64,000 bases of DNA from Piscirickettsiaceae bacterium. GTDB taxonomy: Bacteria > Pseudomonadota > Gammaproteobacteria > Nitrosococcales > Methylophagaceae. The stretch lies in assembly GCA_013215775.1 (NCBI GenBank), contig JABSQO010000005.1, forward strand, positions 1 through 64,000. The letters run 5' to 3'. The notes under the pieces are model-generated. The model did no database searches. It was not told the DNA's origin and saw only the letters and a program-made list of their open reading frames with translations. The position numbers were made by a program, and so were the translations under genes. This document shows, in pieces, positions 383-18,068 of the stretch (position 1 is the stretch's first letter; every line of letters begins with the position of its first letter).

Positions 383-454
383 TTAACGGTTGCAGATGTA
401 CATTGTTACTTCAAAACCGAAACGCATATCTGAATATTCTGGTGTAGTCCACAT
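383..454 (-). CDS. pqqA: PqqA, PQQ precursor peptide, copy 1 (operon copy)
   Basis: This 23-codon gene encodes MWTTPEYSDMRFGFEVTMYI followed by CNR. PqqA is the ribosomally made substrate of PQQ synthesis: the Glu and Tyr of the conserved E-x-x-x-Y motif (here E-V-T-M-Y) are cross-linked by PqqE/PqqD and become the PQQ skeleton. An AAGAGAG ribosome site lies about 7 nt before the ATG. It is followed by two hairpins and pqqB, so it is the copy attached to the pqq operon. The peptide is identical to copies 2 and 3, but its 5' leader just before the ATG differs from theirs. At 23 residues it matches the usual PqqA length. Confidence 0.95.
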   Translation of the reverse strand: MWTTPEYSDMRFGFEVTMYICNR

Positions 455-666: not shown

Positions 667-738
667 TTAACGGTTGCAAATGTACATTGTTACTTCAAAA
701 CCGAAACGCATATCTGAATATTCTGGTGTAGTCCACAT
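667..738 (-). CDS. pqqA: PqqA, PQQ precursor peptide, copy 2 (stand-alone cassette)
   Basis: This gene encodes the same 23-residue peptide as copies 1 and 3, with one silent difference (TACATT for TACATC at Tyr-Ile). The start ATG is preceded by GAGGTAA at a good distance. The leader, roughly 70 nt including GGTTAAGATTTTAAA and CTTTTAGAGGTAATTTATT, is almost identical to that of copy 3. The gene has its own upstream element and its own terminator, so it should be transcribed alone as a supplier of extra precursor peptide. It is the first gene after gorA on this strand. Confidence 0.94.
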   Translation of the reverse strand: MWTTPEYSDMRFGFEVTMYICNR

Positions 739-3054: not shown

Positions 3055-3126
3055 TTAACGGTTGCAGATGTACATTGTTACTTCAAAACCGAAACGCATA
3101 TCTGAATATTCTGGTGTAGTCCACAT
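3055..3126 (-). CDS. pqqA: PqqA, PQQ precursor peptide, copy 3 (stand-alone cassette)
   Basis: This is the third 23-codon pqqA, encoding the same peptide as the other two. The ribosome site GAGGTAATTTATT-ATG and about 70 nt of leader match copy 2. The cassette is bounded by the shared upstream element at 3238-3255 and by the terminator at 3002-3039. It lies directly downstream of a response-regulator gene on the same strand, 149 nt after its stop. The short-ORF length, perfect peptide conservation and repeated regulatory frame leave little doubt about its identity. Confidence 0.94.
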   Translation of the reverse strand: MWTTPEYSDMRFGFEVTMYICNR

Positions 3127-3237: not shown

Positions 3238-3255
3238 TCACTCAGGATTTTCCTT
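3238..3255 (-). promoter_or_regulatory. Conserved upstream element of pqqA copy 3
   Basis: The 18-mer is identical to the one at 563-580 and lies 112 nt upstream of the pqqA copy 3 start, in the short gap after the response regulator. See the copy 1 entry for the shared pattern. Confidence 0.5.
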
Positions 3256-3275: not shown

Positions 3276-3920
3276 TTATGCTTCCAACAGACCACTTCGA
3301 ATCGCAAGTCGAGCTAATTCCGCCGAGTTTGAAACGTCCAGTTTTTGTTTAATATTAGTATGGTGCGTTCCTACTGTTTTGGGGCTTAAGCTAAGAATTT
3401 CAGCGATATTATTAACGGTTTGGCCTTCGGCCAGCAATCTAAACACTTCAAATTCACGCTGACTTAATACATCCAGCACACTATCTGAACCTGTTAATTT
3501 TTGCATGGCTATTTTCTGCGCGATCTCAGGGTCAATACACATTTTACCTTGCGCGACTTGCTCTACTGCTTTAATCATTTCTTCAGGAGCGCTACGTTTA
3601 GGAATGAAACCCTTCGCCCCAGCTTGTAATGCCCTAGCGGTGAATATGCTGTCTTCATGCACACTTAAGATTAAAATACAGGCGTCCTGATCTCGAGCAA
3701 TAATTCGCTCAACCGCACCGATACCACCAATTCCGGGCATTGAAATGTCCATGACCACCACATCAGGATTAAGCTTCACATAATCTTGTACGGCCTGCTC
3801 ACCACTGCCTGCCTCAGCAATAACGGTAAACTTGTCACAATCTTCTATTAAGCGTCGGAAACCTGCACGAACCAACTCATGGTCATCCACTAGCAATACT
3901 GTTATTGCGTTATCACTCAT
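3276..3920 (-). CDS. NarL/FixJ-type response regulator
   Basis: This 214-residue cytoplasmic DNA-binding regulator has an N-terminal receiver domain (residues 5-120) with the acidic pair Asp12-Asp13, phosphoacceptor Asp58 in VVVMDISMPG, and Lys in PKRSAPEE. The C-terminal LuxR-type helix-turn-helix spans about 150-212 (LSQREFEVFRLLAEG...SPKTVGTHHTNIKQKL). Its start codon overlaps the stop of the sensor kinase by four bases (ATGA), so the two form a translationally coupled two-component pair. It sits 149 nt upstream of pqqA copy 3. Pairs of this type (MoxX/MoxY) regulate methanol oxidation in Paracoccus, so control of pqqA is plausible but not shown. Confidence 0.9.
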   Translation of the reverse strand: MSDNAITVLLVDDHELVRAGFRRLIEDCDKFTVIAEAGSGEQAVQDYVKLNPDVVVMDISMPGIGGIGAVERIIARDQDACILILSVHEDSIFTARALQAGAKGFIPKRSAPEEMIKAVEQVAQGKMCIDPEIAQKIAMQKLTGSDSVLDVLSQREFEVFRLLAEGQTVNNIAEILSLSPKTVGTHHTNIKQKLDVSNSAELARLAIRSGLLEA

Positions 3921-5629
3921 CTTGTTTTATCCGCCTCTAAAGGTATTGTTATATGAATCGACACACCATCACCAAGTGCACTGATTAACTGAAAGGTTCC
4001 ACTCATACTTTTCGCCCGTTCTCGCATACCTAATAAACCAAAATCAACATCCGAATGAAAATCCTGCACTTCCATACCTTTACCATCATCACTAATATCA
4101 ATGATCAATTGATTTTGCCCACTATCATGTTCATTCGTCACCGAAATGGCAATATTAGAAGCATCGGCATGACGAACAGCATTGGTAATCGATTCTTGTA
4201 CTACGCGAAAGACCGTCATATTCATCATTTCATTTAGGTTATCTAATGCACCTGAAACATGTAAGGTAAAATTAATTTCTGGTTTCCGTCCTTGCCAAGC
4301 AGAAATAGTTTCTTCCAATGTTGCCAGCAAACCCAAATCATCTAATGGGCTAGGCCGTAATCGAGTAATCATATTATGTACTACATCATAAATGTGGCTA
4401 GCAACATCAATAATGGCTTGGGCACTAGTAAAAACTTTAGGTTCTGTTTCTGCTGTCCTATTACGAATTAACACGGCATCGGTTTTAATCGCTGTTAAAC
4501 ATTGTCCTAATTCATCGTGTAATTCGCGAGCTAGATGACGACGCTCTGTTTCCTGAACTTCTGACATATGCTGCGCTAATAATCGCGTTTCTCGCAATTG
4601 ATTTTCTGCTGCTTCAGCCAGCTTATGTTCAGTAATATCTCGTAACGTACAAATTACACCACTCACGACTTTCTCTGCATCCAATAACCGTACTGTAGAC
4701 AGTAATATAGACTGTTCGCCACCACTAGCATTTGGCAATTGAGTTTCTAAATTTTCCACTATGTCGCAATTGTCCAACATCTCAGCGATACGCTGTTGAT
4801 TGTCTATAAAGCCAAATGTCGCTAATTTTCTCCCTAACAAATCAGCTGTTTTTTGATTCAACAAAATCTCTGCAGCCGGATTACACAGTGTAATAAGCCC
4901 TGATTGGTCCAGCGATAAAATAGCATCTCCAGATTGTTGAACTAATACTGCTAGGCGTCTGTTTTGTTCAATGCTTTCTTCTAATGCCTGCCCCATTCGA
5001 TTGAATGTTTGTCCAATCTGATCCATTTCTGCCAACGTAAATTTAGGAAGGCGCAAATGTAAATCACCACGTTCAAATCCTGCTAATGCATCTAATAAAC
5101 GTTGCAGTGGACGTATCAACCAATCAACACCCCAATATAGAAACAAGCCAACAAAAATAAATATCCCTAAACCTAAAGCAAAAATGCTTCGAATATCAAC
5201 CCAACGTTCGCCTATTTCATGGATAGGTGCTGCATAAATCACCATACGACCATCACCAAAACGTTTAGATAAGGGGCTGACATTAGGCAGCAATAAATCA
5301 ATAAACCATTCTGGCGGTTTTACATCAACATACTCTTCTGGCTCACCTTCAAACAACAAACCTTGAGAATCAAACAATAAAATATGCAGGCTGCGAATTT
5401 CGCTTAAGGCTTTAACCAGTTCTTGTAAATGTTCATAGATGCCGACATTTCTATTTAATGGGCTCCCTGATAGCGATACGGTGATTAAGCGTGCAGCTGA
5501 AGCCATGGTATCGGCCACATCATTTTCCACCGATTCACGGGCATTTGAGATCAATACACCCGTACTCGCTAGCAATGAAGCAAGCAGTAATAACGTAAAG
5601 AACAGATTTACTTTTAATCTAAGGCTCAT
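3917..5629 (-). CDS. NarX/UhpB-type membrane sensor histidine kinase with HAMP and PAS domains
   Basis: This 570-residue protein has a transmembrane segment at about 8-27, a periplasmic sensor region to about 145, a second membrane segment at 147-168, HAMP (about 168-222), PAS (225-335), HisKA_3 dimerisation with the phosphorylated His in RELHDELGQCL, and an ATPase domain with N-box VVQESITNAVRHA and G-box DDGKGM. It overlaps soxZ upstream and the response regulator downstream, each by ATGA. The periplasmic loop has no domain I recognise. Because soxYZ is co-translated, the signal could be the state of a periplasmic sulfur carrier, or a substrate of methanol/sulfur metabolism (inference). Confidence 0.88.
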   Translation of the reverse strand: MSLRLKVNLFFTLLLLASLLASTGVLISNARESVENDVADTMASAARLITVSLSGSPLNRNVGIYEHLQELVKALSEIRSLHILLFDSQGLLFEGEPEEYVDVKPPEWFIDLLLPNVSPLSKRFGDGRMVIYAAPIHEIGERWVDIRSIFALGLGIFIFVGLFLYWGVDWLIRPLQRLLDALAGFERGDLHLRLPKFTLAEMDQIGQTFNRMGQALEESIEQNRRLAVLVQQSGDAILSLDQSGLITLCNPAAEILLNQKTADLLGRKLATFGFIDNQQRIAEMLDNCDIVENLETQLPNASGGEQSILLSTVRLLDAEKVVSGVICTLRDITEHKLAEAAENQLRETRLLAQHMSEVQETERRHLARELHDELGQCLTAIKTDAVLIRNRTAETEPKVFTSAQAIIDVASHIYDVVHNMITRLRPSPLDDLGLLATLEETISAWQGRKPEINFTLHVSGALDNLNEMMNMTVFRVVQESITNAVRHADASNIAISVTNEHDSGQNQLIIDISDDGKGMEVQDFHSDVDFGLLGMRERAKSMSGTFQLISALGDGVSIHITIPLEADKTR

Positions 5630-5943
5630 TTAACCATTGTTTCCACAGAGCCTTTAGCGCCAAGATTATCCACCCAACGAATTGATATTTTATCGCCTTT
5701 TTGGCCACCCGCTAATTGGAACGAGAAATACGGGTTCTGCGCGGTGCCTGTGCCACATTTAATGGTCAGAACCTCCTCACCATTTCGCCAACAGCGAATA
5801 TCCTGAATAAATTCAGCAGGAATTAATTGTTCTCCTGCATCTTTTGCTCTGCCAGTATGCATTGGATGAGCGAGTAACAGACGAACATTAGTATCATCCG
5901 CTCTTAGTTTTGCCCGAATGCGATCTTTTGAAATCAATCCCAT
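5626..5943 (-). CDS. soxZ: SoxZ, sulfur-carrier partner protein
   Basis: This 105-residue immunoglobulin-like protein pairs with SoxY in the periplasm and helps present the SoxY C-terminal cysteine. Typical features are RIRAKL near the start, HPMHTGRAKD, IPAEFIQDI and the C-terminal KGDKISIRWVDNLG. There is no signal peptide, as expected: SoxZ is exported with the Tat-carrying SoxY. I chose the ATG at 5943, which overlaps the soxY stop by one base (TAATG) with GGAGG 9 nt before it; the ATG three codons upstream is too close to that site. The ribosome site is formed by the two Gly codons at the soxY end. It is coupled to the kinase gene downstream by ATGA. Confidence 0.9.
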   Translation of the reverse strand: MGLISKDRIRAKLRADDTNVRLLLAHPMHTGRAKDAGEQLIPAEFIQDIRCWRNGEEVLTIKCGTGTAQNPYFSFQLAGGQKGDKISIRWVDNLGAKGSVETMVK

Positions 5944-6434
5944 TAGCCACATCCTCCAATATCTACTTCAACAAATCGCGTCGTTTTATACAACTTGCCA
6001 TCTGCACGAATAATCGCCATGACTTGTGAGTCTTCACGTATTTTAATCATGCTCTTAAATGGCAATTTCACCACGGGCGTAAATTCCAAATTCATTACTA
6101 ATGGGAACGGATTTTTTTCAACTAACACGGCAATACGTTCAATATTTTTCAAATCACTTTGAATTTCGATAGGCACAGAGGCACCATTAACAGCATAACT
6201 TGGTGGCGCACCTACTTTAAAAGCTAATGCTGAATCCGTTGCCACTTCTGCCTCGCCTAACAGTGCCAATAAAGCATCTTCCACTGTTTCAGCAGAAAAT
6301 GCATCTGCTGGCCAATGTGCTAACAACCGTTGTGGCAAGAGTAACCCACTCGCCGCAACCAATGCCATTGTTGATGCTGATATTGCACCTTTAATAAAGG
6401 TTCTACGCTGTTGATCTGGTTTTTTTATCATCAT
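5943..6434 (-). CDS. soxY: SoxY, Tat-exported sulfur-carrier protein
   Basis: This 163-residue protein carries a twin-arginine signal (QQRRTFIKGAISAS, residues 9-22, then a hydrophobic stretch to about 39) and the C-terminal swinging-arm motif VDIGGCG, whose Cys carries sulfur as a persulfide or thiosulfonate adduct in thiosulfate oxidation. Canonical SoxY ends GGCGG; here one Gly is missing before the stop. The gene is joined by overlaps to an M48 protease upstream (ATGA) and soxZ downstream (TAATG). No soxAX, soxB or soxCD is in the window, so this may be a carrier for another pathway, as in SoxYZ-like carriers linked to quinoprotein dehydrogenases (inference). Confidence 0.9.
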   Translation of the reverse strand: MMIKKPDQQRRTFIKGAISASTMALVAASGLLLPQRLLAHWPADAFSAETVEDALLALLGEAEVATDSALAFKVGAPPSYAVNGASVPIEIQSDLKNIERIAVLVEKNPFPLVMNLEFTPVVKLPFKSMIKIREDSQVMAIIRADGKLYKTTRFVEVDIGGCG

Positions 6435-7879
6435 GATTCTTCTAATTGTGCCAAGGTGGTTTCCACCTCACGTAATCTGGAATTAATTTTAGACAATTGG
6501 TATTCATCACCTTTTGCGAAACCGGCAGCTAAACGCAATTGATCAGCTGCCTGCTCTAAACGACCAGCACTATAATAATACTCTGCTAACCAGCCATGAG
6601 ACTGACTTTTCTCACCCATTTTACCTTTAGCCTGTGCTAATAGCTTATAAAGCTGAGCTGACGGCGAGCCCAAATCTAATTGTCTTAATAATAATTGTGT
6701 TGCCTGCTTAGGTAAATTTGCTAGCAATAATGCAGCCACCTGATTCATCGTCAATGCTTGATCGTCAGGATATAATTTTTGATTAAATTGATAAATTTGC
6801 AATGCTGCTGATAATCGACCAACGGCTATTTCAATATCTGCTAAAGCTAACTGATAACTAAGGCGGTCACCATCCTGATCAATAAGGGTTTGCAGTACTT
6901 TCCTAGCTGAGGTGTAATTCCCTCCCGCGGACAAAGCAAGACTGTAACCATATTGCGTCGCGACATCATTCAAACCTTTACCTGTTTTCACGGCATCTTC
7001 ATAGTATTGTGTTAACTCCGTCAAATTGGGCGCAGCCATCACTCGCAATTTTTCTCGCATCAAATAAAAATGCAAGCTATCTCCTAACTGTCGCTGCAAT
7101 GGGTATCTCACGGCTCGCCCACGAGCATTAGCAATACGAGAAGTGGTGACAGGATGTGTTCGTAAAAATTCTGGCACCTTATTACCACTATAAAAACGAC
7201 TCGTTTTTTGTAATCGTTCAAAGAATGCAGGCATTGCCTGTGCGTCAAAACCAGAACGAACTAAAGTCAACATGCCTAAATTATCCGCTTCGCTTTCATG
7301 TGCTCGGGTAAAGTTTAATTGAGCTTGAACACCACCGGCTTGTACAGCCATTAATGCTGCCGAACCTGCCGCCGGATCAGCGGCCCCTAATAATAACGCG
7401 GCAATCAATCCTACCTTCGTCGCCAAATTTAACTGTTGTGATTTCTCAAAACTACGCAACAAATGACGCTGGGTGATATGAGCAATCTCATGAGCCAATA
7501 CAGATGCCACTTCATCTTCCGTCTGACTTGTTAAAATCAAACCGCTGTTCATTCCAATAAATCCACCTGGTGCTGCAAAGGCATTGACTGATGAGTCTGG
7601 CACCATAAAAAAGGTAAAAGGTAAATGAGGTGCATCACTACTAGCGACTAAGCGATAGCCCAAAGACTGTATGTAACTAGTCAGTTCAGGGTCAGAGATT
7701 AAATCGACCGATTGTTGTATTCGCCAAAAGAACGCCTGACCAATCTGATATTCTTGTTGGGGAGAAACTAAGGCACCTGCGCTATCGCCAATTTCAGGCA
7801 ACTCAATATCGGCAGAGTTCAACATGACCCACGGCCAGCTTATTACTCCTAACAACATTATTACAATGATTTTTTTCAT
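6431..7879 (-). CDS. M48-family zinc metalloprotease with TPR-like C-terminal half (BepA/YfgC type)
   Basis: This 482-residue protein begins with a signal or membrane segment (residues 4-20). The protease domain has the zinc motif HEIAH (130-134), a third ligand Glu in AHESEADNLG, and the family SSVNAFAAPGGFI sequence. The second half (about 290-475) is helical repeat sequence of the TPR kind (for example LALADIEIAVGRLSAALQIYQ). E. coli BepA, of similar length and layout, is a periplasmic protease/chaperone for outer-membrane proteins. Here it is the first gene of an operon with soxY and soxZ, so it might act on those exported proteins or a PQQ-linked protein (inference). It is divergent from tusA (103 nt between starts). 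Confidence 0.88.
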   Translation of the reverse strand: MKKIIVIMLLGVISWPWVMLNSADIELPEIGDSAGALVSPQQEYQIGQAFFWRIQQSVDLISDPELTSYIQSLGYRLVASSDAPHLPFTFFMVPDSSVNAFAAPGGFIGMNSGLILTSQTEDEVASVLAHEIAHITQRHLLRSFEKSQQLNLATKVGLIAALLLGAADPAAGSAALMAVQAGGVQAQLNFTRAHESEADNLGMLTLVRSGFDAQAMPAFFERLQKTSRFYSGNKVPEFLRTHPVTTSRIANARGRAVRYPLQRQLGDSLHFYLMREKLRVMAAPNLTELTQYYEDAVKTGKGLNDVATQYGYSLALSAGGNYTSARKVLQTLIDQDGDRLSYQLALADIEIAVGRLSAALQIYQFNQKLYPDDQALTMNQVAALLLANLPKQATQLLLRQLDLGSPSAQLYKLLAQAKGKMGEKSQSHGWLAEYYYSAGRLEQAADQLRLAAGFAKGDEYQLSKINSRLREVETTLAQLEES

Positions 7880-7982
7880 AACTCAATAGACATTTAATTC
7901 ATCCTAAGGGTTCCTACAAGACAAATACCCCTATTTCGGTTTATTATTACACGATTATATAGATAATATTTACGGGGATGCC

Positions 7983-8219
7983 ATGTCAGATTTTGATGTT
8001 AAACTTGATACGTCGGGCTTAAACTGCCCATTACCCGTCCTCAAAGCTCGTAAAGCTTTATCAGGCATGTCTATTGGCCAACGTCTTCTTTTAATCGCCA
8101 CCGACGAGGGCGCAAAGCAAGACATCCCTGCCTTTGCAAAAATGACCGGCAATACTTTAGTTGAAAGTCATGAGCAAGAGGGTAAATTCCACTTTATTCT
8201 CATCAAAGGGGATGAATAA
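7983..8219 (+). CDS. tusA: TusA-family sulfur-carrier protein
   Basis: This 78-residue protein of the SirA/TusA fold holds the signature LNCPLPVLKAR with the sulfur-binding Cys15. TusA proteins accept persulfide sulfur and pass it on, either for tRNA thiolation or, in sulfur oxidisers, within rhodanese-TusA-DsrE2 relays. The start at 7983 has GGGG 6 nt upstream. Its stop overlaps the dsrE-like start by one base (TAATG). Pairing with a DsrE2-type protein points to sulfur trafficking rather than tRNA modification (inference). Confidence 0.9.
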   Translation: MSDFDVKLDTSGLNCPLPVLKARKALSGMSIGQRLLLIATDEGAKQDIPAFAKMTGNTLVESHEQEGKFHFILIKGDE

Positions 8220-8683
8220 TGGCTAAAAAACTCGCAATTATCGCTAGCAAGGGCACACTTGATGGTGCTTACCCCCCATTTTTATTAGCATCAACAGCGG
8301 TAGCACTTGGCTTTGAAGTGAAAATATTTTTCACCTTTTACGGTTTACAATTACTCAATAAGAATCTAAATCTAAAAGTGTCTCCATTAGGCAATCCTGC
8401 GATGCCAATGCCTGTACCCATACCAAGCATCGTGCAAATCATCCCAGGATTGGAATGGTTTGCAACATGGATGATGAAACGCAAATTGAAACAAAAAGGC
8501 GTGGCTAGCGTAGAAGAATTACGTGACATTTGTGTTGAATCAGGCGTTGATCTTATTGCCTGTCAAATGACGGTTGATTTATTTGATTTCAATCCGGAAG
8601 ACTTCATCGATGGAATCAGTTCTGGTGGTGCGGCGACCTATCTAGAATTCGCTGGCGAAGCTGACGTTACACTCTATATTTAA
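8219..8683 (+). CDS. DsrE2-type sulfurtransferase-like protein
   Basis: This 154-residue protein of the DsrE/DsrF/PrmC-like superfamily starts with a Rossmann-like strand (KLAIIASKGTLDGAYPPFLLA). A hydrophobic middle (about 60-85, IPSIVQIIPGLEWFATWMM) is the feature of the membrane-associated DsrE2 branch. Cys115 in LIACQMTVDLF is the conserved sulfur-binding position; Cys105 is nearby. It overlaps tusA by one base. In sulfur oxidisers DsrE2 proteins sit beside tusA and rhodanese genes and bind sulfur. No rhodanese gene is visible here. Confidence 0.85.
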   Translation: MAKKLAIIASKGTLDGAYPPFLLASTAVALGFEVKIFFTFYGLQLLNKNLNLKVSPLGNPAMPMPVPIPSIVQIIPGLEWFATWMMKRKLKQKGVASVEELRDICVESGVDLIACQMTVDLFDFNPEDFIDGISSGGAATYLEFAGEADVTLYI

Positions 8684-8757
8684 ATTTTTAAGATGAACAA
8701 TAGTGGTCGATTAAACTCGATGACCATTGGGTAAGATATTTCAGCACAATTAGGTCA

Positions 8758-8829
8758 TGCCCTCGGCAAGAATCGAACTTGCATCTAAGTCTTAGGAGGA
8801 CCTTGTTTTATCCATTAAACTACGAAGGC
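8758..8829 (-). tRNA. tRNA-Arg (anticodon CCT)
   Basis: The 72-nt cloverleaf on the minus strand has acceptor GCCTTCG/CGAGGGC, D-arm GTTT-AATGGATA-AAAC, anticodon arm AGGTC-CTCCTAA-GACTT with anticodon CCT, and T-arm GCAAG-TTCGATT-CTTGC. The discriminator base is A, and the 3' CCA is not encoded. It reads the rare codon AGG. It stands alone between dsrE2 and glnK; I see no adjacent integrase or duplicated 3' end that would mark an integration site. Confidence 0.95.
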
Positions 8830-8994
8830 ATAGAGCTGTAATTATATTTGATCGAATCCGAATCACCTAACCTGAATTAATCACACTAAATATAATGCTC
8901 TTAACGACTATTTTTCTTGACGATTTGTCTTTTTTACGCTTTACTCACGAAGTTATCAAAATGCATCTTAAAAGCCCTCATAAATGGGCACTAA

Positions 8995-9348
<354 letters not shown>

Positions 9349-9377
9349 TAGTTTTAATTTTAAGAGAGTGAAATAGT

Positions 9378-10667
9378 ATGCCTATGTTTAAAAAAATAAT
9401 AGCAATGCTGGTATTGTTATTACCAATGTCGGTCTTTGCCAGCGATGAGTTCTCAGGTGCTGATACCGCTTGGATCTTAACCTCTACTGCATTAGTGCTA
9501 TTTATGACCTTACCCGGTTTAGCACTCTTCTATGGCGGTCTTGTTCGTACCAAAAACGTATTATCTGTCTTAATGCAATGTTTTTCCATTGCTTGTCTAG
9601 TCACTATTCTCTGGATAACTGTGGGATATAGCATAGCCTTTGGTGATGGTGGTTCGATGCAACAGTGGTGGGGCGGATTAGATAAAGCATTTATGATGGG
9701 CGTTGATTTTGATGCCATGACAGGTACCATTCCTGAATCCTTATTTGCTATGTTCCAACTAACTTTTGCCATCATTACTCCTGCATTGATTGTCGGCGCA
9801 TTTGCAGAACGTATGAAATTCTCGGCCATGCTACTATTTAGTGGTTTATGGCTAGTACTTGTTTATGCCCCTCTTTGCCATTGGGTATGGGGTGGTGGCT
9901 GGTTATCAGATAAAGGTTTACTTGATTTTGCTGGTGGTACTGTTGTTCATGTCAGTGCCGGTATCTCTGCACTTGTAGCCGCTATTTTAATCGGAAAACG
10001 TCGAGGCTTCCCTCAAACGGCTATGCCTCCACATAATATGACAATGACGGTAACGGGTGCTGCCATGCTATGGGTCGGTTGGTTTGGTTTCAATGGTGGT
10101 AGTCAATTAGCTGCAGATGGTGGCGCTGCAATGGCCATGTTTGTGACTCATATTAGTGCGGCTGTTGGTGCATTCACTTGGATGGTGATTGAGTGGGTTC
10201 GCCATGGCAAACCAAGCATGTTAGGTGTGGTGACAGGTATGGTTGCAGGTCTCGGCACTATTACACCAGCATCTGGCTTTGTTGGCCCAATGGGCGCATT
10301 GCTGATTGGTATGTCTGCCGGTATCGTATGTTATACCGCCACACAATATATCAAGCGCGTTCTGGTTATTGATGATTCTCTAGACGTATTCCCTGTGCAT
10401 GGTGTCGGTGGTATCCTCGGTACTCTACTTGCCGGTGTATTCATCTCATCTTCATTGGGTGGTGTGGGATTAGCGGATGGCATCTCTATGGCCGGTCAAG
10501 TCTTTATACAGTTTCAAGGTGTAATTGCGACATTAGTCTGGTGTGGTGTAATGACGTTTATTTTGCTTAAAGTCATTGATTCCTTTATCGGATTACGTGT
10601 CGATGCTGAAGAAGAAACTGAAGGTTTAGATTTAGTCGACCACGATGAACGTGGTTATAGTTTATAA
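9378..10667 (+). CDS. amtB: Ammonium transporter AmtB
   Basis: This 429-residue inner-membrane channel has an N-terminal cleavable signal (MPMFKKIIAMLVLLLPMSVFA, residues 1-21) followed by about eleven membrane helices. Family sequences include DTAWILTSTALVLFMTLPGLALFYGGL, the ASGFVGP-containing repeat, and the pore histidines in PLCHWVWGGGW and FPVHGVGGI. The length agrees with the family (about 430). GAGAG lies 9 nt before the start. It forms an operon with glnK and ends at a strong terminator. Confidence 0.95.
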   Translation: MPMFKKIIAMLVLLLPMSVFASDEFSGADTAWILTSTALVLFMTLPGLALFYGGLVRTKNVLSVLMQCFSIACLVTILWITVGYSIAFGDGGSMQQWWGGLDKAFMMGVDFDAMTGTIPESLFAMFQLTFAIITPALIVGAFAERMKFSAMLLFSGLWLVLVYAPLCHWVWGGGWLSDKGLLDFAGGTVVHVSAGISALVAAILIGKRRGFPQTAMPPHNMTMTVTGAAMLWVGWFGFNGGSQLAADGGAAMAMFVTHISAAVGAFTWMVIEWVRHGKPSMLGVVTGMVAGLGTITPASGFVGPMGALLIGMSAGIVCYTATQYIKRVLVIDDSLDVFPVHGVGGILGTLLAGVFISSSLGGVGLADGISMAGQVFIQFQGVIATLVWCGVMTFILLKVIDSFIGLRVDAEEETEGLDLVDHDERGYSL

Positions 10668-10688
10668 TTAGATCTTTCAGAACTTAAT

Positions 10689-10720
10689 TAAAAAGCCTGC
10701 TTTATTGCAGGCTTTTTTTT
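10689..10720 (+). terminator. Intrinsic terminator after amtB
   Basis: A perfect 10-bp stem AAAAGCCTGC / GCAGGCTTTT (10691-10700, 10707-10716) with a 6-nt loop is followed by eight T. The A run on the other side lets it also serve the convergent HDAC-family gene. Confidence 0.92.
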
Positions 10721-10742
10721 GCCTCTAATTAGGTACTAAATC

Positions 10743-11720
10743 TTATCCATCATCCATTAACGCAGTGATATGTGCTGCAACAGCATCGGCGTTACCTTGA
10801 AGGTTGTATCCCCCTTCCAACATAGAAATAATCTTACCATCACAATGTTTATCTGCTATTGCTTTGACCATTTCGGTAAGCTTAATAAATCCTTGATCGG
10901 TAATATTTAGGCAACCCAAGAGATCATCTTGTCGACTATCAAAACCAGCTGAAATCAAAATAATATCAGGTGAAAATTTGTTTGCTGCAGCTAGTAATTT
11001 ATGCTGAAAAGCATCGATAATATCTTTATCTGTTGAGCCACATTCTAGATGTACATTAATATTAAACCCTTTACCCGCCCCTTCACCTATCCTTGATGGG
11101 AAACCGGTACCAGGATAAGCAAAAACATCATGTGTTGAAAAATACAGCACACTAGGATCAGAATAAAATGCCCACTCAGTGCCGTTACCATGATGGTAAT
11201 CCCAATCCACAATAAGCACTTTCTTAACACCATACTGCTTCTGAGCATAACGAGCAGCAATCGCAATATGATTGTAATAACAGAACCCCTCTTCCTGTCC
11301 TGTATTTTTAGCATGATGTCCCGGGGGTCTAGAGGCACTAAATGCATTGCGAACATTATTTGAACACACTGCATCAACAGCCGCCAATACTGCTCCTGTA
11401 GCAACCAGCGCATGAGTATGCGCTTGTGCATCATTACGATTTATTGAATCAATATGGCTCTGTGAATGAATTAAATTAAGCCATTGTTCAATATCCTCTT
11501 TTGGCTTAATAAAAACTGCTTTATCTAAGATACCCTCGTTGTTGAGTTTCTCCGTAATAGCTTGATAACGTAAAGGCTTCTCTGGATGTTGAGGACTAAT
11601 ATGATGTTTTAAGAATCGCTGATCCAATACTAAGCCTGTCGATGATTTTTTCGGTTTGGCTTGCACGTATTTCGATAAAATCGTGAGTCCTGACAATGCA
11701 AGAAAATTTCGTCTTTCCAT
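10743..11720 (-). CDS. HDAC-superfamily deacetylase with an N-terminal Tat-like signal
   Basis: This protein of about 325 residues belongs to the histone deacetylase / acetylpolyamine amidohydrolase superfamily of zinc hydrolases. The active-site motifs are present: RPPGHHA (two catalytic His), DWDYHHGNGTEWAF (zinc Asp and His), STHD, SAGFD (second zinc Asp) and EGGYN (catalytic-site Tyr). The start at 11720 has GAAGG 9 nt upstream, and the protein then begins MERRNFLALSGLTIL...VQA-KP, an RR-x-F-L twin-arginine pattern with a short hydrophobic stretch and an AxA-like cleavage site. That suggests export to the periplasm, unusual for this cytoplasmic family. The natural substrate is unknown; acetylated polyamines or other amides are possible. 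Confidence 0.87.
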   Translation of the reverse strand: MERRNFLALSGLTILSKYVQAKPKKSSTGLVLDQRFLKHHISPQHPEKPLRYQAITEKLNNEGILDKAVFIKPKEDIEQWLNLIHSQSHIDSINRNDAQAHTHALVATGAVLAAVDAVCSNNVRNAFSASRPPGHHAKNTGQEEGFCYYNHIAIAARYAQKQYGVKKVLIVDWDYHHGNGTEWAFYSDPSVLYFSTHDVFAYPGTGFPSRIGEGAGKGFNINVHLECGSTDKDIIDAFQHKLLAAANKFSPDIILISAGFDSRQDDLLGCLNITDQGFIKLTEMVKAIADKHCDGKIISMLEGGYNLQGNADAVAAHITALMDDG

Positions 11721-11904
11721 TTGTTTTAACCTTCTTCTCATCAGCCTTCGTCAAATCATCTTACGACCCGAAGCATTCTATACGCCTCAAACAACCCTTT
11801 TGACAACTGTAATGGTGTTATTTCAGTTTAGCCTAAATCCATCAGAAACGGTATGATTAGCGACATTCCACTTACTATAATTACATTTAACCCTGCAAAT
11901 ACAT

Positions 11905-12936
11905 ATGACTAATCGAGCAGTATTATTAATCAATTTAGGTTCTCCTGACCAACCAGATACTAAATCTGTTCGTCGTTATCTTAACCAATTTCTCATGGAT
12001 CCTTATGTTATTCAATTACCTTGGTTATTACGCCGGTTAATTGTCAGTTTATTTGTCCTCCCTTCTCGACCAAAAGCGTCTGCGAAAGCATATAAAAGTG
12101 TTTGGTTGGCTGAAGGCTCGCCGCTGATCGTGTTATCTAATCAGCTCAAGCGGGCATTACAATTAAAAGTCACAATGCCTGTGGGTATGGCTATGCGTTA
12201 TGGCCATCCGAGCATTGAAAGTCAACTGTTAGAGCTTACTAAACAAGACGATATTTCTGAAATATTGCTTCTACCGCTTTATCCACATTACGCACAAAGC
12301 ACTGTCACTACTTCAATAAAACAAGCTCACTCTGTTATCAAAAAGCATCAACTTGATATTAAACTAACAACCATCTCGCCTTTTTATAATGATCCGGATT
12401 ATATTAATGCCCTAGTCGACAGCGCCAAACCGTACCTCGAACAAGATTTCGATCATATTGTTTTTAGTTATCATGGCTTGCCAGAATCCCACATTACTAA
12501 GCTAGATGAGTCTGGTACTCATTGCTTGCAATCTGAGAGTTGCTGTCAGCAACAAAATAAAGTGCATTCTCACTGCTACCGTCATCAGGTGTTACAAACA
12601 ACACAGTGTTTTATAGACAAAATTGGATTGCCAGCTGAGCGTTATTCAATCGCATTTCAATCTCGACTTGGACGCGCTAAATGGTTGGGACCGAATACTG
12701 AGGATCGACTACGAGAACTGGCCGTATCGGGTGTTAAAAATGTACTGGTGATTTGTCCGGCCTTTGTGACCGATTGCTTAGAGACGCTCGAAGAAATTGC
12801 ACTCCGTGGTCAAGAAGTTTTTATTGAAGCAGGAGGGGATTCTTTGACGCTTATACCCTGTTTAAATAGCCAGCCGAAATGGATTGATGCCTTAGCATCA
12901 TGGTGCCAAAATAATGGACTACACTCGACCCAATAA
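11905..12936 (+). CDS. hemH: Ferrochelatase (protoheme ferro-lyase)
   Basis: This 343-residue enzyme inserts Fe2+ into protoporphyrin IX, the last step of heme synthesis. The N-terminus is LINLGSPDQPDTKSVRRYL. The active-site His lies in FSYHGLPESH, and the family AFQSRLGRAKWLGP and CPAFVTDCLETLEEI segments follow. It is slightly longer than E. coli HemH (320). A cysteine-rich stretch (CLQSESCCQQQNK) just after the active site is typical of the family. It overlaps the convergent flgN gene by 18 nt and is divergent from the HDAC-family gene. Confidence 0.95.
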   Translation: MTNRAVLLINLGSPDQPDTKSVRRYLNQFLMDPYVIQLPWLLRRLIVSLFVLPSRPKASAKAYKSVWLAEGSPLIVLSNQLKRALQLKVTMPVGMAMRYGHPSIESQLLELTKQDDISEILLLPLYPHYAQSTVTTSIKQAHSVIKKHQLDIKLTTISPFYNDPDYINALVDSAKPYLEQDFDHIVFSYHGLPESHITKLDESGTHCLQSESCCQQQNKVHSHCYRHQVLQTTQCFIDKIGLPAERYSIAFQSRLGRAKWLGPNTEDRLRELAVSGVKNVLVICPAFVTDCLETLEEIALRGQEVFIEAGGDSLTLIPCLNSQPKWIDALASWCQNNGLHSTQ

Positions 12937-13407
12937 GGGCTGTCTAACTACCTGACTAGTATATTCACCACCTGGACCATAAGACGTTATATTTAAATCA
13001 CGGCCCCTTAAAACACTCATTGCACGGTGTAAATATTGACGATTGACATTAACGATACCACCATTGATTTGGTTATAATCGCGGCATTCTTGAGCAGTGG
13101 CACGTACTTGGACTAACAAATCGTTTAATTGCTGTGATTCTCTTTTATTTTGATTGGCAATAAAAGCCTCTAGACCATCTTTTCCTGATGAAAAACCTTC
13201 TGCTTGCAATATTCCTTCACGCTGACGACCAAGTTGCTCTAACTGGGTGAGTAGAGGTTGCTTGTTGGTATTCATCAAAGCCATCACATCGGCATCAGAT
13301 TTTACTAATGAATCTCGTTCGGCAGTTAAAATTTCTAAAAGTTGAGTTGCAGTATGTTGCTCAGCTTGCAGTACACTTCGAAGCTGTTGAGATGAAGTCA
13401 TCGCCAT
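12919..13407 (-). CDS. flgN: Flagellar chaperone FlgN
   Basis: This 162-residue, mostly alpha-helical protein is the cytoplasmic chaperone of the hook-filament junction proteins FlgK and FlgL. Family features are the N-terminal LLEILTAERDSLVKSDADVM heptads, the QREGIL stretch, and a C-terminal helix with NQINGGIVNVNRQYLHRAMSVL. AAGG lies 9 nt before the ATG at 13407. It directly follows flgM (20 nt gap) in the usual flgA-flgM-flgN order. Its last 18 nt overlap the end of hemH on the other strand. Confidence 0.88.
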   Translation of the reverse strand: MAMTSSQQLRSVLQAEQHTATQLLEILTAERDSLVKSDADVMALMNTNKQPLLTQLEQLGRQREGILQAEGFSSGKDGLEAFIANQNKRESQQLNDLLVQVRATAQECRDYNQINGGIVNVNRQYLHRAMSVLRGRDLNITSYGPGGEYTSQVVRQPLLGRV

Positions 13408-13427
13408 TACGTTACACCTTGAGTTAG

Positions 13428-13730
13428 TTATTGCTCAATATTAATTATATTTTGTGCTAACTCAGTGACGTCTACTTGATATGTTCCGTTTTCAATGGCT
13501 GATCGAAACGCATCAATGCGCGCTTGATCAACTCCAGATGAATCCGAAATGGTTTGTTGTAATGCCTGCAAATCAGTTGCAGTATTTGTCAAACTCACCG
13601 TATCAGTACGTGCCTCATTCGTTTGCACATTTCCCGATTTATTAGCGTTTACAGTATCTTGCGTATTAACATTACGCGCAGTGTCTACCGTCGATTGGCC
13701 AGATGGTTTGATGTTATCTATTACAGACAT
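13428..13730 (-). CDS. flgM: Anti-sigma-28 factor FlgM
   Basis: This 100-residue protein binds and inhibits sigma-28 (FliA) until the hook is complete, when it is secreted. It starts MSVIDNIKPSGQSTVDTARN. The N-terminal half is polar and low in complexity, as in other unstructured FlgM proteins, and the C-terminal sigma-binding part holds VDQARIDAFRSAIENGTYQVD. It is preceded by a near-consensus sigma-28 promoter, giving the usual feedback loop. Confidence 0.92.
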   Translation of the reverse strand: MSVIDNIKPSGQSTVDTARNVNTQDTVNANKSGNVQTNEARTDTVSLTNTATDLQALQQTISDSSGVDQARIDAFRSAIENGTYQVDVTELAQNIINIEQ

Positions 13731-13760
13731 TTAAATGTTTCCATATGTTTTATGCTCATT

Positions 13761-13787
13761 ACATCGGCCAATATTAAGATAACTTGA
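13761..13787 (-). promoter_or_regulatory. Sigma-28 (FliA) promoter of flgM
   Basis: On the minus strand TCAAGTTA - 11 nt - GCCGATGT matches the flagellar sigma-28 consensus (TAAAGTTT-N11-GCCGATAA) in spacing and in most positions. The -10 element ends about 30 nt before the flgM start codon. Confidence 0.8.
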
Positions 13788-13818
13788 ATTTAAAACGCCC
13801 CGCTTATTCAATCTAATC

Positions 13819-14526
13819 TCACATCGTTATTCTTACTATGCCGGGTGCATCCACTATGCCCTCGACAATTCGTTTGGAAGATAAGTTTTTAACACGTATT
13901 CGTTGACCCTGAGTAGCATCTGACAACGCCTTACCTGTCATTCTTACTTCCATATTTCCTGCTGTCGCGATCAACACAATCTGTTCACCACGATGTATCA
14001 CTTTTTTATCTACTAAACTACGTGGTTTAATCACCGTTCCTCTAGCAACGGAATATTTCAACTGTTGTCCAATCACCATTTTAGTATTTTGCAAATATCC
14101 TTGACGCAAAATAGAAATATCATGCTGTTCTATTCGTATATCAGCTTTTGTTATCTCATATCTAGCAGGCAATGATTTCACTACCACCACCACCGGTTGG
14201 AATACTTTTACCTGAATAGGAACATACACTGTCCAAGCAACTGGACGATGACATTTAACACCAATCGTTTGATTTCCTAAACCTGAATTTTGTGTGTTAG
14301 AAAAAGCTTCCAATTTACTATCACACGCTTGTAATCGTAATCTGGAATCCAGTGCAGTCATCACAATCTGAGGATTATCATATTGAGATTGTGCTTTCGA
14401 CAAACCATATTCATATGCTGCATGTTCAATATTATCTAAGGACTGTAAAGTCTCCGCTTTAGGTGCTGAAATAGCACCTGCACTGAGCAGTATTAATAGT
14501 ATTACTTTGTAAATTACTGTATTCAT
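13819..14526 (-). CDS. flgA: FlgA, P-ring assembly chaperone
   Basis: This 235-residue periplasmic chaperone helps FlgI form the flagellar P ring. It has a signal peptide (residues 1-24, ending APKA) and the conserved SAF-domain C-terminal half: YEITKADIRIEQHDI, VIGQQLKYSVARGTVIKPRSL, and the terminal QRIRVKNLSSKRIVEGIVDAPG. It begins 88 nt upstream of flgM on the same strand, has a sigma-54 type promoter at 14593-14610, and flgM has its own sigma-28 promoter. Confidence 0.92.
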   Translation of the reverse strand: MNTVIYKVILLILLSAGAISAPKAETLQSLDNIEHAAYEYGLSKAQSQYDNPQIVMTALDSRLRLQACDSKLEAFSNTQNSGLGNQTIGVKCHRPVAWTVYVPIQVKVFQPVVVVVKSLPARYEITKADIRIEQHDISILRQGYLQNTKMVIGQQLKYSVARGTVIKPRSLVDKKVIHRGEQIVLIATAGNMEVRMTGKALSDATQGQRIRVKNLSSKRIVEGIVDAPGIVRITM

Positions 14527-14592
14527 TTGAATACCTCATTTTCCTCATCAGTACTGCCAATTATCCGGCAGCATCGTCACTACAGTATAAAT

Positions 14593-14610
14593 AAGCAAAT
14601 AGCATGCCTG
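14593..14610 (-). promoter_or_regulatory. Sigma-54 promoter upstream of flgA
   Basis: The minus strand reads CAGGCATGCTATTTGCTT: GG and GC separated by exactly 10 nt, fitting YTGGCACGRNNNTTGCW at 12-13 positions. The predicted start would leave a leader of about 57 nt. FlrC, encoded in this window, is the expected kind of activator. Confidence 0.65.
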
Positions 14611-14711
14611 ATTGATTTACCTTTAATGATCTCGCTACGGTAAGTGGTAATCTTAAAATGAGCTCAATGATCCGACACCTTGAAGATCGGTAAAAACTGG
14701 AGAAGAATTCT

Positions 14712-14753
14712 ATGGCAAGCATGATTTATAACGCCAACCAACGTACCCTGTGA
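14712..14753 (+). pseudogene. Probable remnant of cheV: ribosome site plus the first 13 codons
   Basis: A clear ribosome site (TGGAGAAGAATTCT) precedes an ATG that opens MASMIYNANQRTL and then meets TGA. CheV proteins begin M-A-G/S-x5-N-Q-R-T-x-L. The location fits: in Vibrio and Pseudomonas cheV-cheR lies divergently beside flgA-flgM-flgN. Downstream, all three frames are broken (for example at 14751 and 14769) until the convergent DUF4340 gene, so the rest of cheV and cheR is absent. The identification rests on a short match plus gene order and is tentative. Confidence 0.45.
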
Positions 14754-14992
14754 TACAAGGCACACTAATCTTTGTGGCAAAGTGGTTATTATTTTTTAGC
14801 TATGGGTATCAGCGGGCAAACAGTCAACGTTTTATTGCATTCATCCATGAGTGATGAATTTAATTTCAATGACAGACAAAGTCGGAGTAGAAAAATTTAC
14901 CGGCAAATTTTCTACAGATGATCTCGCTAGTTCCGTACAAATTCTAATTGAACCGTGGAAACAACCATCCTCTATCGTAATCGTTTCAAGCT
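14754..14992. other. Gene-free stretch after the cheV remnant
   Basis: I see no supported gene here. A plus-strand frame at 14851-15033 can be read for 60 codons but lacks a ribosome site and ends inside the DUF4340 gene. The stretch looks like decayed sequence at the junction between the flagellar block and the ABC-exporter operon. Confidence 0.4.
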
Positions 14993-16102
14993 TTAAGGTG
15001 CCACACCCATCATATCTGCTGGCATTGGAATAGCATTGCCTGATGTTGTCACCATATCGGCTTTAGCACGCATTAAATTGGTACCTACAAAGCCACCAAA
15101 ACGATATACCCAAGCAGTTAACTCTTTATTAAATTTATCCACTTCTTGCTGAATTTCTTCCGGTGTTTTAAGTACACCTAGTTCTATAATATCTTTAGAA
15201 GGTGTAGTCACAAGTGACTGGTCACTCTCAGCAAAAAATGTGGTGAAATAATACCCATCAATAAACGAAGTTTCGGTGGTTATTTTTAAGCCATCAAAGG
15301 TAATAAACTCGGCCGTCACCACCTCAGAATCTTCTCTAGAGAAACCATCAAGTGGTTGCACATCTTCCATTCGTAACTGATATAAAGTGCTGGCAATATC
15401 ATAACCCAGTAAGTTATATTTGAAGACTGTTTTAGCACCCATCTCTGGTGTGCCAAATTTATCTTTTTGACCAAGATTAACAATAGTTGCTGTTTCACCA
15501 TTTGGTTGAATAATATTGACTTGAGTTATGCGTTCACGTGCAATATTCATGACTTCACTCTTAATCCAATTCAACATTAGTGGATTAATATTTAAGTAAC
15601 CTTCAGCCAACCATGAACCTTCTTCTCCTGCTCGACGAACATAAAACCGTCTTGTTCCTTGTCCTTGACCCAATTCACGTTCATTACCCAAAATAAGCCC
15701 AGCAACCTCTTGCTCACCACTGAACATGGTGACTTGAACTGATGAACCTTCGGCACCTTCAACACCTAACAATTCATAATATTCTGGATTACTTGTTTTA
15801 CGTTCAAGAATTTTAGCATCAGCGATATCGATTAATGCACGTTTAACCAGATTAAAATCAGCAAGATGATCCCATCGTTCTTTTACAAACCAATCTTCAC
15901 CTTGTTTAAATAATGTAAATTGATCTTGAGAACTGTTGAAAGTAATCTTATCGACCTCACCTAACTGCTCATATAGGGCCGGAAATAGTAATGAATAATC
16001 CTCATTGTTATCTCTAGGTCGTTGAATCGTCATCAACATCAACAACGACATCACTACCGTGACAATCACTAAAATGGTGAAACTATTTAATTTTTTAATC
16101 AT
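14993..16102 (-). CDS. DUF4340 protein of the Gld-like ABC exporter operon
   Basis: This 369-residue protein has one N-terminal membrane helix (about 5-25) and an otherwise periplasmic, beta-rich body of the DUF4340 kind (FTLFKQGEDWFV, AKILERKTSNPEYYELLGVEG, GLILGNE). It is the last gene of a four-gene operon with an ATPase, a permease and a GldG-like protein. In other bacteria DUF4340 proteins occur in the same set. The function is unknown; it is probably an accessory subunit of the exporter. The gene starts 36 nt after the GldG-like gene. Confidence 0.85.
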   Translation of the reverse strand: MIKKLNSFTILVIVTVVMSLLMLMTIQRPRDNNEDYSLLFPALYEQLGEVDKITFNSSQDQFTLFKQGEDWFVKERWDHLADFNLVKRALIDIADAKILERKTSNPEYYELLGVEGAEGSSVQVTMFSGEQEVAGLILGNERELGQGQGTRRFYVRRAGEEGSWLAEGYLNINPLMLNWIKSEVMNIARERITQVNIIQPNGETATIVNLGQKDKFGTPEMGAKTVFKYNLLGYDIASTLYQLRMEDVQPLDGFSREDSEVVTAEFITFDGLKITTETSFIDGYYFTTFFAESDQSLVTTPSKDIIELGVLKTPEEIQQEVDKFNKELTAWVYRFGGFVGTNLMRAKADMVTTSGNAIPMPADMMGVAP

Positions 16103-16137
16103 ATTTTTACAAACCTAAATTACAGTTTCTGTATTTA

Positions 16138-18054
16138 TTACTGCTCAAGCCTACCTTGAGTACGTTTTCGAACACGTAACCAACCTGTGAGCACTGCTAA
16201 TAACGCCACCAACAAAGGTATAAGGCCGATATTAAAGAATTTCATTTTGGTATCTAACGCATCAATATCTTTACGTAGATTACCCTGCACTTCACGCAGC
16301 TTTTGCTGTGTTTTATGCACCATTATCCGATGCTCCGTAATCTCTTGTTGCTGCTCAACATTGAGAAGTTCACCACCACTACCACTACGTTCCACTTCCA
16401 TTCTAGCAATCAGCTGTTTGGTTTCATCTAATGTTTTCTGTAATTCACGCTCTTGAGTACGATAATGTTTTTCTGCTTCCCGCTGTAGCGCTAAAACACG
16501 ATCAAATGGTCGTGAAAACCCTGCACGAGAACGTACACTAATCAAACCATTATTACCTGACATTTCATCAATCGCATTAATCAAGAAATCAATATTATTG
16601 GATGTATTATAGGTAATCTGTTCGCCATAAAAATCTTGTAACTGTACCCAGAATCGTTCTTTCAACATATCAACATCCGCAATCGCTATCACATCAATAT
16701 CTTGTTTTGATTCCGTTAAATGTTTAGATGACTTGGTAACGTTGCCATCAGCATCTTTAATACCATTAGGAAATACAGATTTAACGGGGCCATTGACTCG
16801 AATTGCAATCGGATAACTTAATGTTCCTGGTAGATATTTTGTTAAAAGCGCTAAGGGATCGTTACGGAACTGTACTACTCGTTTATCCACTAACATTGCT
16901 TCATCACTTGATGAAAACAAGGGTATTACATTCGTTGTTGCACCCTCAATTTCCTTAAAATAGCCGGTCGTAGCCACTTCAATTTTTTTCAATTGACTGG
17001 TAATCGCTTGCTCACTATTTAATTGATCAGCAGGAATAGCATGCCACAATACATAGTCAATCGGCTTATTGTTTGTTCGTGCGCCAAAATCTACTTTTAT
17101 TGCTGTTTTACGATCCGCTACTACATCTGCGGCAGCACGTTCGAAACCCCACGCTTTGAACAATTCAGGCATATTAGAACTACGTGAATACACTATTGCA
17201 GCCATCGGGTTTTCAGAATCTTTCTCTGGAATATCACTTTCAGAATAAGGGTCTACAAAGGTAATTAATTTACCGCCACGTAATACATATTGCTCAATGG
17301 CGTATAAAGTACTCTCCGGAAATTCCTTCGGGTGAATAACCATTAATACATCGATACTTGAAGGAATTCGACGGATCTCCATTGGCAGAGATGACACATT
17401 AAATAACTGTCTTAATTCCGCCATAAATGCCCATGGTTTTGCACCACCTGAAAGTATGTCACCTTTCAATGGGTCATAGTCTTGACCATCTATCTCTAAC
17501 TCAGCGGCGCTGATAACAGCCACTGATTTTCTATTTAAACTCGTTAATTTATAAATAAGTTTGGTTAGATCATATTCCAGCACATCTTCTTTTTCTGGCT
17601 GAAAAAATGAAATGCTTTCAACACCATCCAGCAAGTTACTACCTGCCAAGCCGAAATATAAAGGATCTGCTTCACCTTCAATGGGTACACCTTGTAAACC
17701 ATATTGTTTCGCTCGTTGCTCATTGTCTGAGAATGGTTCAGGGTTGATTATCGTTAATTCAATCATGCCATCGGAAGCACGTTGATATTCTTCTAATAAT
17801 TCTTGTACGCGCTGTGCATAAGATTTCAGACTCGGTAACTCTTGAGCAACTTTATCCGAAAAATAAAAACGTAAGGCAATAGGTTCTTTTAATGAGCCAA
17901 TGATATTCAATGTACCTTCAGACAAGGTATATAACTTATTTTCTGTTAAATCGATGCGAGCCGACTTTAAATTGCCATTGGTCACGATATTAAATGACAA
18001 AAAGAGAATCGTTGCCAGTATTAAACCTGTTGTCGATAATAGTTGTTTATTCAT
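16138..18054 (-). CDS. GldG-like ABC exporter periplasmic/membrane subunit
   Basis: This 638-residue protein has a membrane helix near each end (about 8-27 and 607-625) and a long periplasmic region between them, the layout of the GldG family (IDLTENKLYTLSEGT near the start, then a ThuA-like/IFT52-like fold with LITFVDPYSE). A coiled-coil stretch (about 515-600, rich in Glu, Gln and Arg) precedes the C-terminal helix. Together with the ATPase and permease it forms an ABC-2 type exporter of unknown cargo. In Bacteroidetes the related GldA-GldF-GldG supports gliding; here that role is not implied. Confidence 0.86.
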   Translation of the reverse strand: MNKQLLSTTGLILATILFLSFNIVTNGNLKSARIDLTENKLYTLSEGTLNIIGSLKEPIALRFYFSDKVAQELPSLKSYAQRVQELLEEYQRASDGMIELTIINPEPFSDNEQRAKQYGLQGVPIEGEADPLYFGLAGSNLLDGVESISFFQPEKEDVLEYDLTKLIYKLTSLNRKSVAVISAAELEIDGQDYDPLKGDILSGGAKPWAFMAELRQLFNVSSLPMEIRRIPSSIDVLMVIHPKEFPESTLYAIEQYVLRGGKLITFVDPYSESDIPEKDSENPMAAIVYSRSSNMPELFKAWGFERAAADVVADRKTAIKVDFGARTNNKPIDYVLWHAIPADQLNSEQAITSQLKKIEVATTGYFKEIEGATTNVIPLFSSSDEAMLVDKRVVQFRNDPLALLTKYLPGTLSYPIAIRVNGPVKSVFPNGIKDADGNVTKSSKHLTESKQDIDVIAIADVDMLKERFWVQLQDFYGEQITYNTSNNIDFLINAIDEMSGNNGLISVRSRAGFSRPFDRVLALQREAEKHYRTQERELQKTLDETKQLIARMEVERSGSGGELLNVEQQQEITEHRIMVHKTQQKLREVQGNLRKDIDALDTKMKFFNIGLIPLLVALLAVLTGWLRVRKRTQGRLEQ

Positions 18055-18068
18055 CTTTCTTAAAACTC

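Follow-up and report, generated by a model that had tools for sequence, protein, structure and literature searches.

SoxYZ-like carriers encoded next to quinoprotein dehydrogenases are documented, and carbon-side roles have been proposed for them (PMC11237559, PMC12997753); a role in carbon metabolism is likewise suspected for the SoxYZ variants beside such dehydrogenases (PMC11237559). No function has been established for those next to pyrroloquinoline quinone (PQQ) dehydrogenases. In Methylophaga thiooxydans, soxCDHYZ and two soxYZ fusions occur without SoxAB, and their role was left open by the authors (PMC6548844). Here we describe an operon of the Methylophagaceae in which separate SoxY and SoxZ proteins are encoded together with a methanol-type sensor kinase, and which provides a genetically simple, family-wide case of such carriers that includes cultured Methylophaga. 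The operon was analyzed in a stretch of 64,000 nucleotides (the window, positions 1-64,000; assembly GCA_013215775.1, contig JABSQO010000005.1), where it is located on the minus strand and consists, in order of transcription, of the following genes:

6431-7879, minus strand: M48 zinc metalloprotease with a tetratricopeptide repeat (TPR) region, BepA type (PF01435, 1.1e-35; HEIAH motif)
5943-6434, minus strand: SoxY with a twin-arginine translocation (Tat)-type RR signal and a single C-terminal cysteine, tail GGCG (PF13501, 7.9e-24)
5626-5943, minus strand: SoxZ, TAATG start used (TIGR04490, 102 bits, above the cut-off of 76 bits)
3917-5629, minus strand: sensor histidine kinase with a transmembrane segment, a periplasmic LapD/MoxY-like domain (weak match), a second transmembrane segment, HAMP, PAS, HisKA_3 and HATPase
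3276-3920, minus strand: response regulator of the NarL/LuxR type, Response_reg and GerE domains (best model UvrY/SirA/GacA)

The five overlapping genes described in an earlier, sequence-only note on this DNA are all borne out as open reading frames and as families, with overlaps of four bases at M48/soxY, one at soxY/soxZ, and four at both soxZ/kinase and kinase/regulator. Our preferred, still tentative, interpretation is that, in this operon specific to the Methylophagaceae, a SoxYZ independent of the Sox pathway is coupled to a two-component system of the MxaYX kind, and that the whole heads a methanol/PQQ island. The kinase and regulator would tune methanol dehydrogenase and PQQ expression to a periplasmic signal, and SoxYZ, via its one cysteine, would hold intermediates (sulfur or thiols originating from methanethiol, sulfide or thiosulfate), working in the compartment of the quinoproteins and being produced in step with them. 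The M48 protease would be an ancestral, co-transcribed neighbour serving BepA-type envelope quality control, and its action on SoxYZ is not part of the proposal.

The gene order, whose restriction to this genome the earlier note had set out as counting against its reading, was found in 44 of 57 Methylophagaceae genomes, a recurrence beyond chance, including M. thiooxydans, M. sulfidovorans, M. aminisulfidivorans, M. muralis, and M. lonarensis. The kinase is present in 44 of the 57, full length in 43 and cut by a contig end in one. In an even sample of 321 genomes of the class, only this family has the full-length kinase; three genomes outside it match only from the second transmembrane segment onward. 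No description of the five-gene order was found in open-access text. The SoxY/SoxZ overlap is one base in 56 of 59 loci and the SoxZ/kinase overlap exactly four bases in 49 of 53, counts in which some loci come from a genome included twice. As the latter overlap is kept in all genera sampled, it argues against a simpler explanation, possible though somewhat doubtful, in which one transcript carries two unrelated modules, an MxaYX-type methanol regulator and an M48-soxYZ sulfur-side unit, which are neighbours by history and take no part in sensing.

The regulatory pair has the arrangement of MxaY/MxaX, a HisKA_3 kinase followed by a LuxR-type regulator. The nearest kinase paralogues, 30-41% identical and with the same periplasmic domain, are located beside mxaF, xoxF or, in the window genome, a TonB receptor, and the regulator is 48-50% identical to regulators beside mxaF/xoxF. 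In the mapped loci L212, L214, and L217 the operon is placed with PQQ methanol dehydrogenase or pqq genes; in M. aminisulfidivorans (L212) it is followed on the same strand by kinase-regulator-xoxF units, more xoxF genes and pqqBCDE. Between pqqBCDE and the operon, positions 5475-18268 of this locus hold four xoxF-like genes along with an orphan regulator and two kinase-regulator pairs, all on one strand. In a comparison of 36 family genomes, a PQQ alcohol dehydrogenase (TIGR03075) was found in 23 of 24 with the kinase versus 3 of 12 without it (Fisher p 2e-5, relatedness ignored), and SoxB in 2 of 24 versus 7 of 12. Because the kinase accompanies PQQ methanol dehydrogenases rather than SoxB, regulation of methanol/PQQ oxidation is the most likely task of the pair. 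Of the two targets that the earlier note had offered for the regulator, sulfur oxidation or PQQ-dependent oxidation, the latter is thus favoured by the paralogues and the dehydrogenases, whereas SoxB is not followed.

The SoxY of the window scores above the Pfam cut-off but reaches 107.7 bits against TIGR04488, below the cut-off of 125, and matches the SoxY structure 2nnc in the Protein Data Bank (PDB) at 1.7e-15; its tail reads GGCG, compared with the canonical GGCGG. Against TIGR04557, the model of fused quinoprotein-associated SoxYZ-like proteins, the window proteins score 60.5 and 53.8 bits (cut-off 140), and their genes are separate. Two SoxZ cysteines (about residues 51 and 63), possibly a structural disulfide, are kept in nearly all family members, even where SoxY has lost its cysteine. 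No other sox genes lie near the operon, as the earlier note had said, though the same genome carries a second SoxYZ with the tail GGCGG (contig C15), SoxB and a SoxA-like gene (C16), and a fused SoxYZ adjoining an XoxF-like PQQ dehydrogenase (C24). Membership of the operon SoxYZ in the sox cluster of this genome is ruled out because the C15/C16 cluster has its own SoxYZ. The possibility, raised in the earlier note against its own reading, that a complete sox cluster elsewhere uses these genes is therefore right about the existence of a separate sox system and fails on the carrier.

A further pattern concerns the SoxY cysteine. The tail is GGC[G/A/S] in all 44 family genomes with the kinase, and over the 57 genomes the cysteine is found in 44/44 with the kinase and in 0/13 without it. 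Eight family genomes retain M48-soxYZ without the kinase or a PQQ dehydrogenase (loci L060, L080, L082-L086, and L204), with SoxY tails GGDA, GGDI, GGNA, GGVE, GGAV, and GGNP. No cysteine occurs anywhere in the SoxY of the seven that could be fully read, soxY of G003 being split over two contigs, and six of the eight carry a separate, more canonical SoxY and SoxB. In the tree, the seven cysteine-less genomes included fall into a single clade within the kinase-bearing ones (support 98/97), so that the loss counts as one event. Cysteine-less soxY and soxZ have ratios of nonsynonymous to synonymous substitution rates (dN/dS) of 0.07-0.12, like the cysteine-bearing ones, pointing to purifying selection. 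A SoxY lacking the cysteine cannot act as a covalent cysteine-bound sulfur carrier, and the constraint on these genes indicates that SoxYZ has some role for which the cysteine is not needed. In L060 and L080, the two loci mapped fully, soxZ is followed by msrA, pcm, rhodanese, and tolC, whereas in G035 pcm-rhodanese-tolC come after pqqBCDE; a single block deletion of the kinase through pqq in this clade is therefore likely. If the two modules were unrelated, loss of neighbours by block deletion would explain the co-absence of genes; G035 and G025 keep pqqA-pqqBCDE without M48, soxYZ, and the kinase. Against unrelated modules, the kinase never occurs without a cysteine-bearing SoxY in the 57 genomes, and loss of the cysteine is limited to the clade from which the kinase has gone.

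The same pattern bears on the proposal of the earlier note that, through periplasmic contact, the kinase senses how far SoxYZ is loaded with sulfur and that the regulator adjusts sulfur or PQQ-dependent oxidation, which we consider rather unlikely. The perfect co-retention of kinase and SoxY cysteine, in a unit of a methanol-oxidising family, is in its favour, as are the genomes G025, G026, and G035 (G025 is 82% and G026 69% complete), where a PQQ dehydrogenase is kept while M48, soxYZ, and the kinase are all missing. As stated, however, the proposal is unsupported: the periplasmic domain of the kinase contains zero cysteines, which speaks against a simple sulfur relay, paralogues with the same domain stand beside mxaF/xoxF without an adjoining SoxYZ, and the presence of the kinase is inverse to that of SoxB, the correlation being a single event. 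A variant that we judge distinctly unlikely is that SoxYZ was recruited to signal in the periplasm to an MxaY-type kinase, methanol/PQQ expression being set by the state of the sulfur on the SoxY cysteine, with a second, cysteine-independent role (perhaps with M48) surviving in the clade without kinase and cysteine. The cysteine pattern is compatible with, and no proof of, SoxYZ functioning together with the quinoprotein/kinase system, and from one event plus block deletions it cannot be told whether its partner would be the kinase or the PQQ enzymes. As the SoxY cysteine is kept only alongside the sensor, sulfur handling and methanol oxidation may nevertheless be wired together in these bacteria.

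Upstream of M48, two genes of the opposite strand adjoin the operon, confirming the divergent tusA-dsrE2 pair that had been described:

7983-8219, plus strand, divergent from the operon: tusA sulfurtransferase, NCPLP motif
8219-8683, plus strand: dsrE2 membrane sulfur-carrier protein, overlapping tusA by one base (NF047629, 255 bits, above the cut-off)

A tRNA gene (8758-8829, minus strand) is located between dsrE2 and a glnK-amtB pair. M48-soxYZ, often with a divergent tusA-dsrE2, occurs outside the family in many Gammaproteobacteria, and a kinase pair behind soxZ was present in none of the inspected M48-soxYZ loci outside Methylophagaceae; the recurrence of this unit without a kinase is what would be expected of unrelated modules. 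A second distinct M48-soxYZ clade with tails mostly GGC[GAD] (L154, L155, L156, L164, L165, L185, L187, L188, and L190) adjoins a divergent gene that looks like a phosphofructokinase-type enzyme; in several loci the M48-soxYZ unit is followed by a conserved membrane protein of ~295 amino acids. In the sister family, sampled by six genomes (G057-G062), five have tusA divergent from M48 (loci including L254-L257 and L284); behind M48, the four g7 genomes carry pqqA and pqqB, and G059 carries the whole of pqqABCDE. Neither soxYZ nor the kinase is present at these tusA/M48-pqq loci, a situation likewise in line with unrelated modules, and the M48-pqq neighbourhood is for this reason probably older than the five-gene operon. 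In Methylophagaceae, soxYZ and the kinase pair sit between M48 and pqqA. Two older neighbourhoods thus appear to meet in the operon, tusA/M48-pqqABCDE as in the sister family and tusA-dsrE2/M48-soxYZ as in other Gammaproteobacteria. The PQQ neighbourhood, called suggestive in the earlier note, does have the unit at the head of a PQQ/methanol island, but the adjacency is explained by the older M48-pqqA arrangement and loses most of its weight as functional evidence for SoxYZ. As evidence of a link between SoxYZ and quinoproteins it is accordingly weakened.

The tusA-dsrE2 pair also suggests a sulfur-import branch, in which sulfur collected by SoxYZ in the periplasm would reach TusA by way of DsrE2, and the two-component system would induce this branch in the presence of reduced sulfur, for instance from methylated sulfur compounds. 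This alternative seems very improbable. It draws on tusA-dsrE2 lying divergent to M48-soxYZ in most Methylophagaceae as well as in several families of Gammaproteobacteria, and on the route of sulfur from SoxYZ to the cytoplasm through SoxT in Hyphomicrobium (PMC12423496); against this, DsrE2 is missing from 9 of the 44 genomes with the kinase and a cysteine-bearing SoxY, the kinase follows PQQ enzymes, and tusA adjoins M48 also without SoxYZ, so that the adjacency is no sulfur signature. Several Methylophaga that retain soxYZ and the kinase are devoid of dsrE2, and copies with an in-frame stop were seen at G024:C103:5214-5615 and G004:C64:39340-39802.

The M48 protein matches the solved BepA structure (PDB 6sar) over its full length (3.9e-74) and has the HExxH motif and TPR of a BepA-type protease, but scores 401 bits against the NCBIfam BepA model and does not reach its equivalog cut-off of 570. 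A function as a dedicated SoxYZ protease is unsupported because tusA-M48 adjacency occurs without SoxYZ.

Downstream of the regulator, all three pqqA copies claimed in the earlier note are real and encode identical proteins of 23 letters:

383-454, minus strand: pqqA copy 1
667-738, minus strand: pqqA copy 2
3055-3126, minus strand: pqqA copy 3, downstream of the regulator at a distance of 149 bp
3240-3254, minus strand: near-palindrome AGGAAAATCCTGAGT, preceding pqqA copy 3 (candidate promoter element or operator)

The operon was said to run straight into copy 3. A gap of 149 bp holding a conserved near-palindrome of its own separates the two, and for these reasons copy 3 is better seen as a neighbouring unit than as a sixth gene. 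Further minus-strand sites are found at 565-579 (exact) and 853-867 (two mismatches), giving three matches in the window versus 0.16 expected by chance. The element, TCAGGA-AAA-TCCTGA, is located ~110-125 bp upstream of the pqqA copies inspected and is likely a pqqA operator. Its exact 13-mer AGGAAAATCCTGA was found in 45 of the 57 family genomes, in none of the cysteine-less ones, and is absent from all family genomes without a PQQ dehydrogenase. As an operator of this regulator it was rejected, since it is not upstream of M48 and is present in PQQ genomes without the kinase; it belongs to pqqA and does not speak for this regulator. An independent precedent for sulfur-to-PQQ regulation, with another mechanism, comes from Hyphomicrobium, where a second pqqAED cluster is affected when sulfane-sulfur repressors are lost (PMC12423496).

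Several observations weigh against our preferred interpretation. All 21 members match LapD_MoxY_N (PF16448) over the periplasmic domain, but weakly (best 2.1e-5), and the window kinase scores 18-19 bits, under the curated cut-off of 25; a Foldseek search with its AlphaFold-modelled sensor fold (mean predicted confidence, pLDDT, 75) gave no match at E<=0.001. The Fisher values take no account of relatedness, the correlation of cysteine and kinase rests on one event in which the PQQ enzymes were lost too, and the pqqA element also occurs in G025, G026, G035, and G052, PQQ genomes without this kinase. The operon makes two questions testable, namely whether sulfur load regulates methanol oxidation and whether SoxYZ has a role needing no cysteine; a clade that lost the kinase, the PQQ enzymes, and the SoxY cysteine, with SoxYZ still under selection, constitutes a natural experiment.

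Compared with known systems, the operon SoxYZ shares with the canonical carrier of the Sox thiosulfate pathway the SoxY and SoxZ families by sequence, the Tat signal, and the C-terminal cysteine arm, but its GGC[G/A/S] tail is one residue shorter, its SoxY falls under the TIGR04488 cut-off, and it forms a separate clade. The canonical SoxYZ is also expected with SoxB, which the window genome has, while among the 24 operon-bearing family genomes tested, 22 are without it. The quinoprotein-associated SoxYZ-like carriers (TIGR04557; SoxYZ-S2/S4 of PMC11237559; PP_2677 of the ped cluster) resemble it in their PQQ dehydrogenase neighbourhood and suspected role outside sulfur oxidation; these carriers are, however, fused single chains next to SoxH, whereas the operon has separate soxY and soxZ and the fused type is encoded elsewhere in the genome (C24). 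BepA (YfgC, the beta-barrel assembly-enhancing protease) has the same M48 domain with HExxH and TPR, the window protein differing by its operon with soxYZ. RsrS-RsrR of Acidithiobacillus caldus (tetrathionate pathway) is likewise a two-component system regulating sulfur-compound oxidation, with no SoxYZ-kinase operon or PQQ link in the title or abstract of its description (PMC5093147). The MxaYX and MxaY regulators of methanol dehydrogenase in Paracoccus and Methylomicrobium buryatense (PMC5018670) share the HisKA_3 kinase, the LuxR-type regulator, and the location in an mxa/xox/pqq island, and perhaps the LapD/MoxY-like periplasmic domain, which the operon kinase matches weakly; the operon kinase differs from them in having an extra PAS domain, in sharing an operon with M48-soxYZ, and in showing an identity of about 30-41% with the paralogues of MxaY type next to mxaF.

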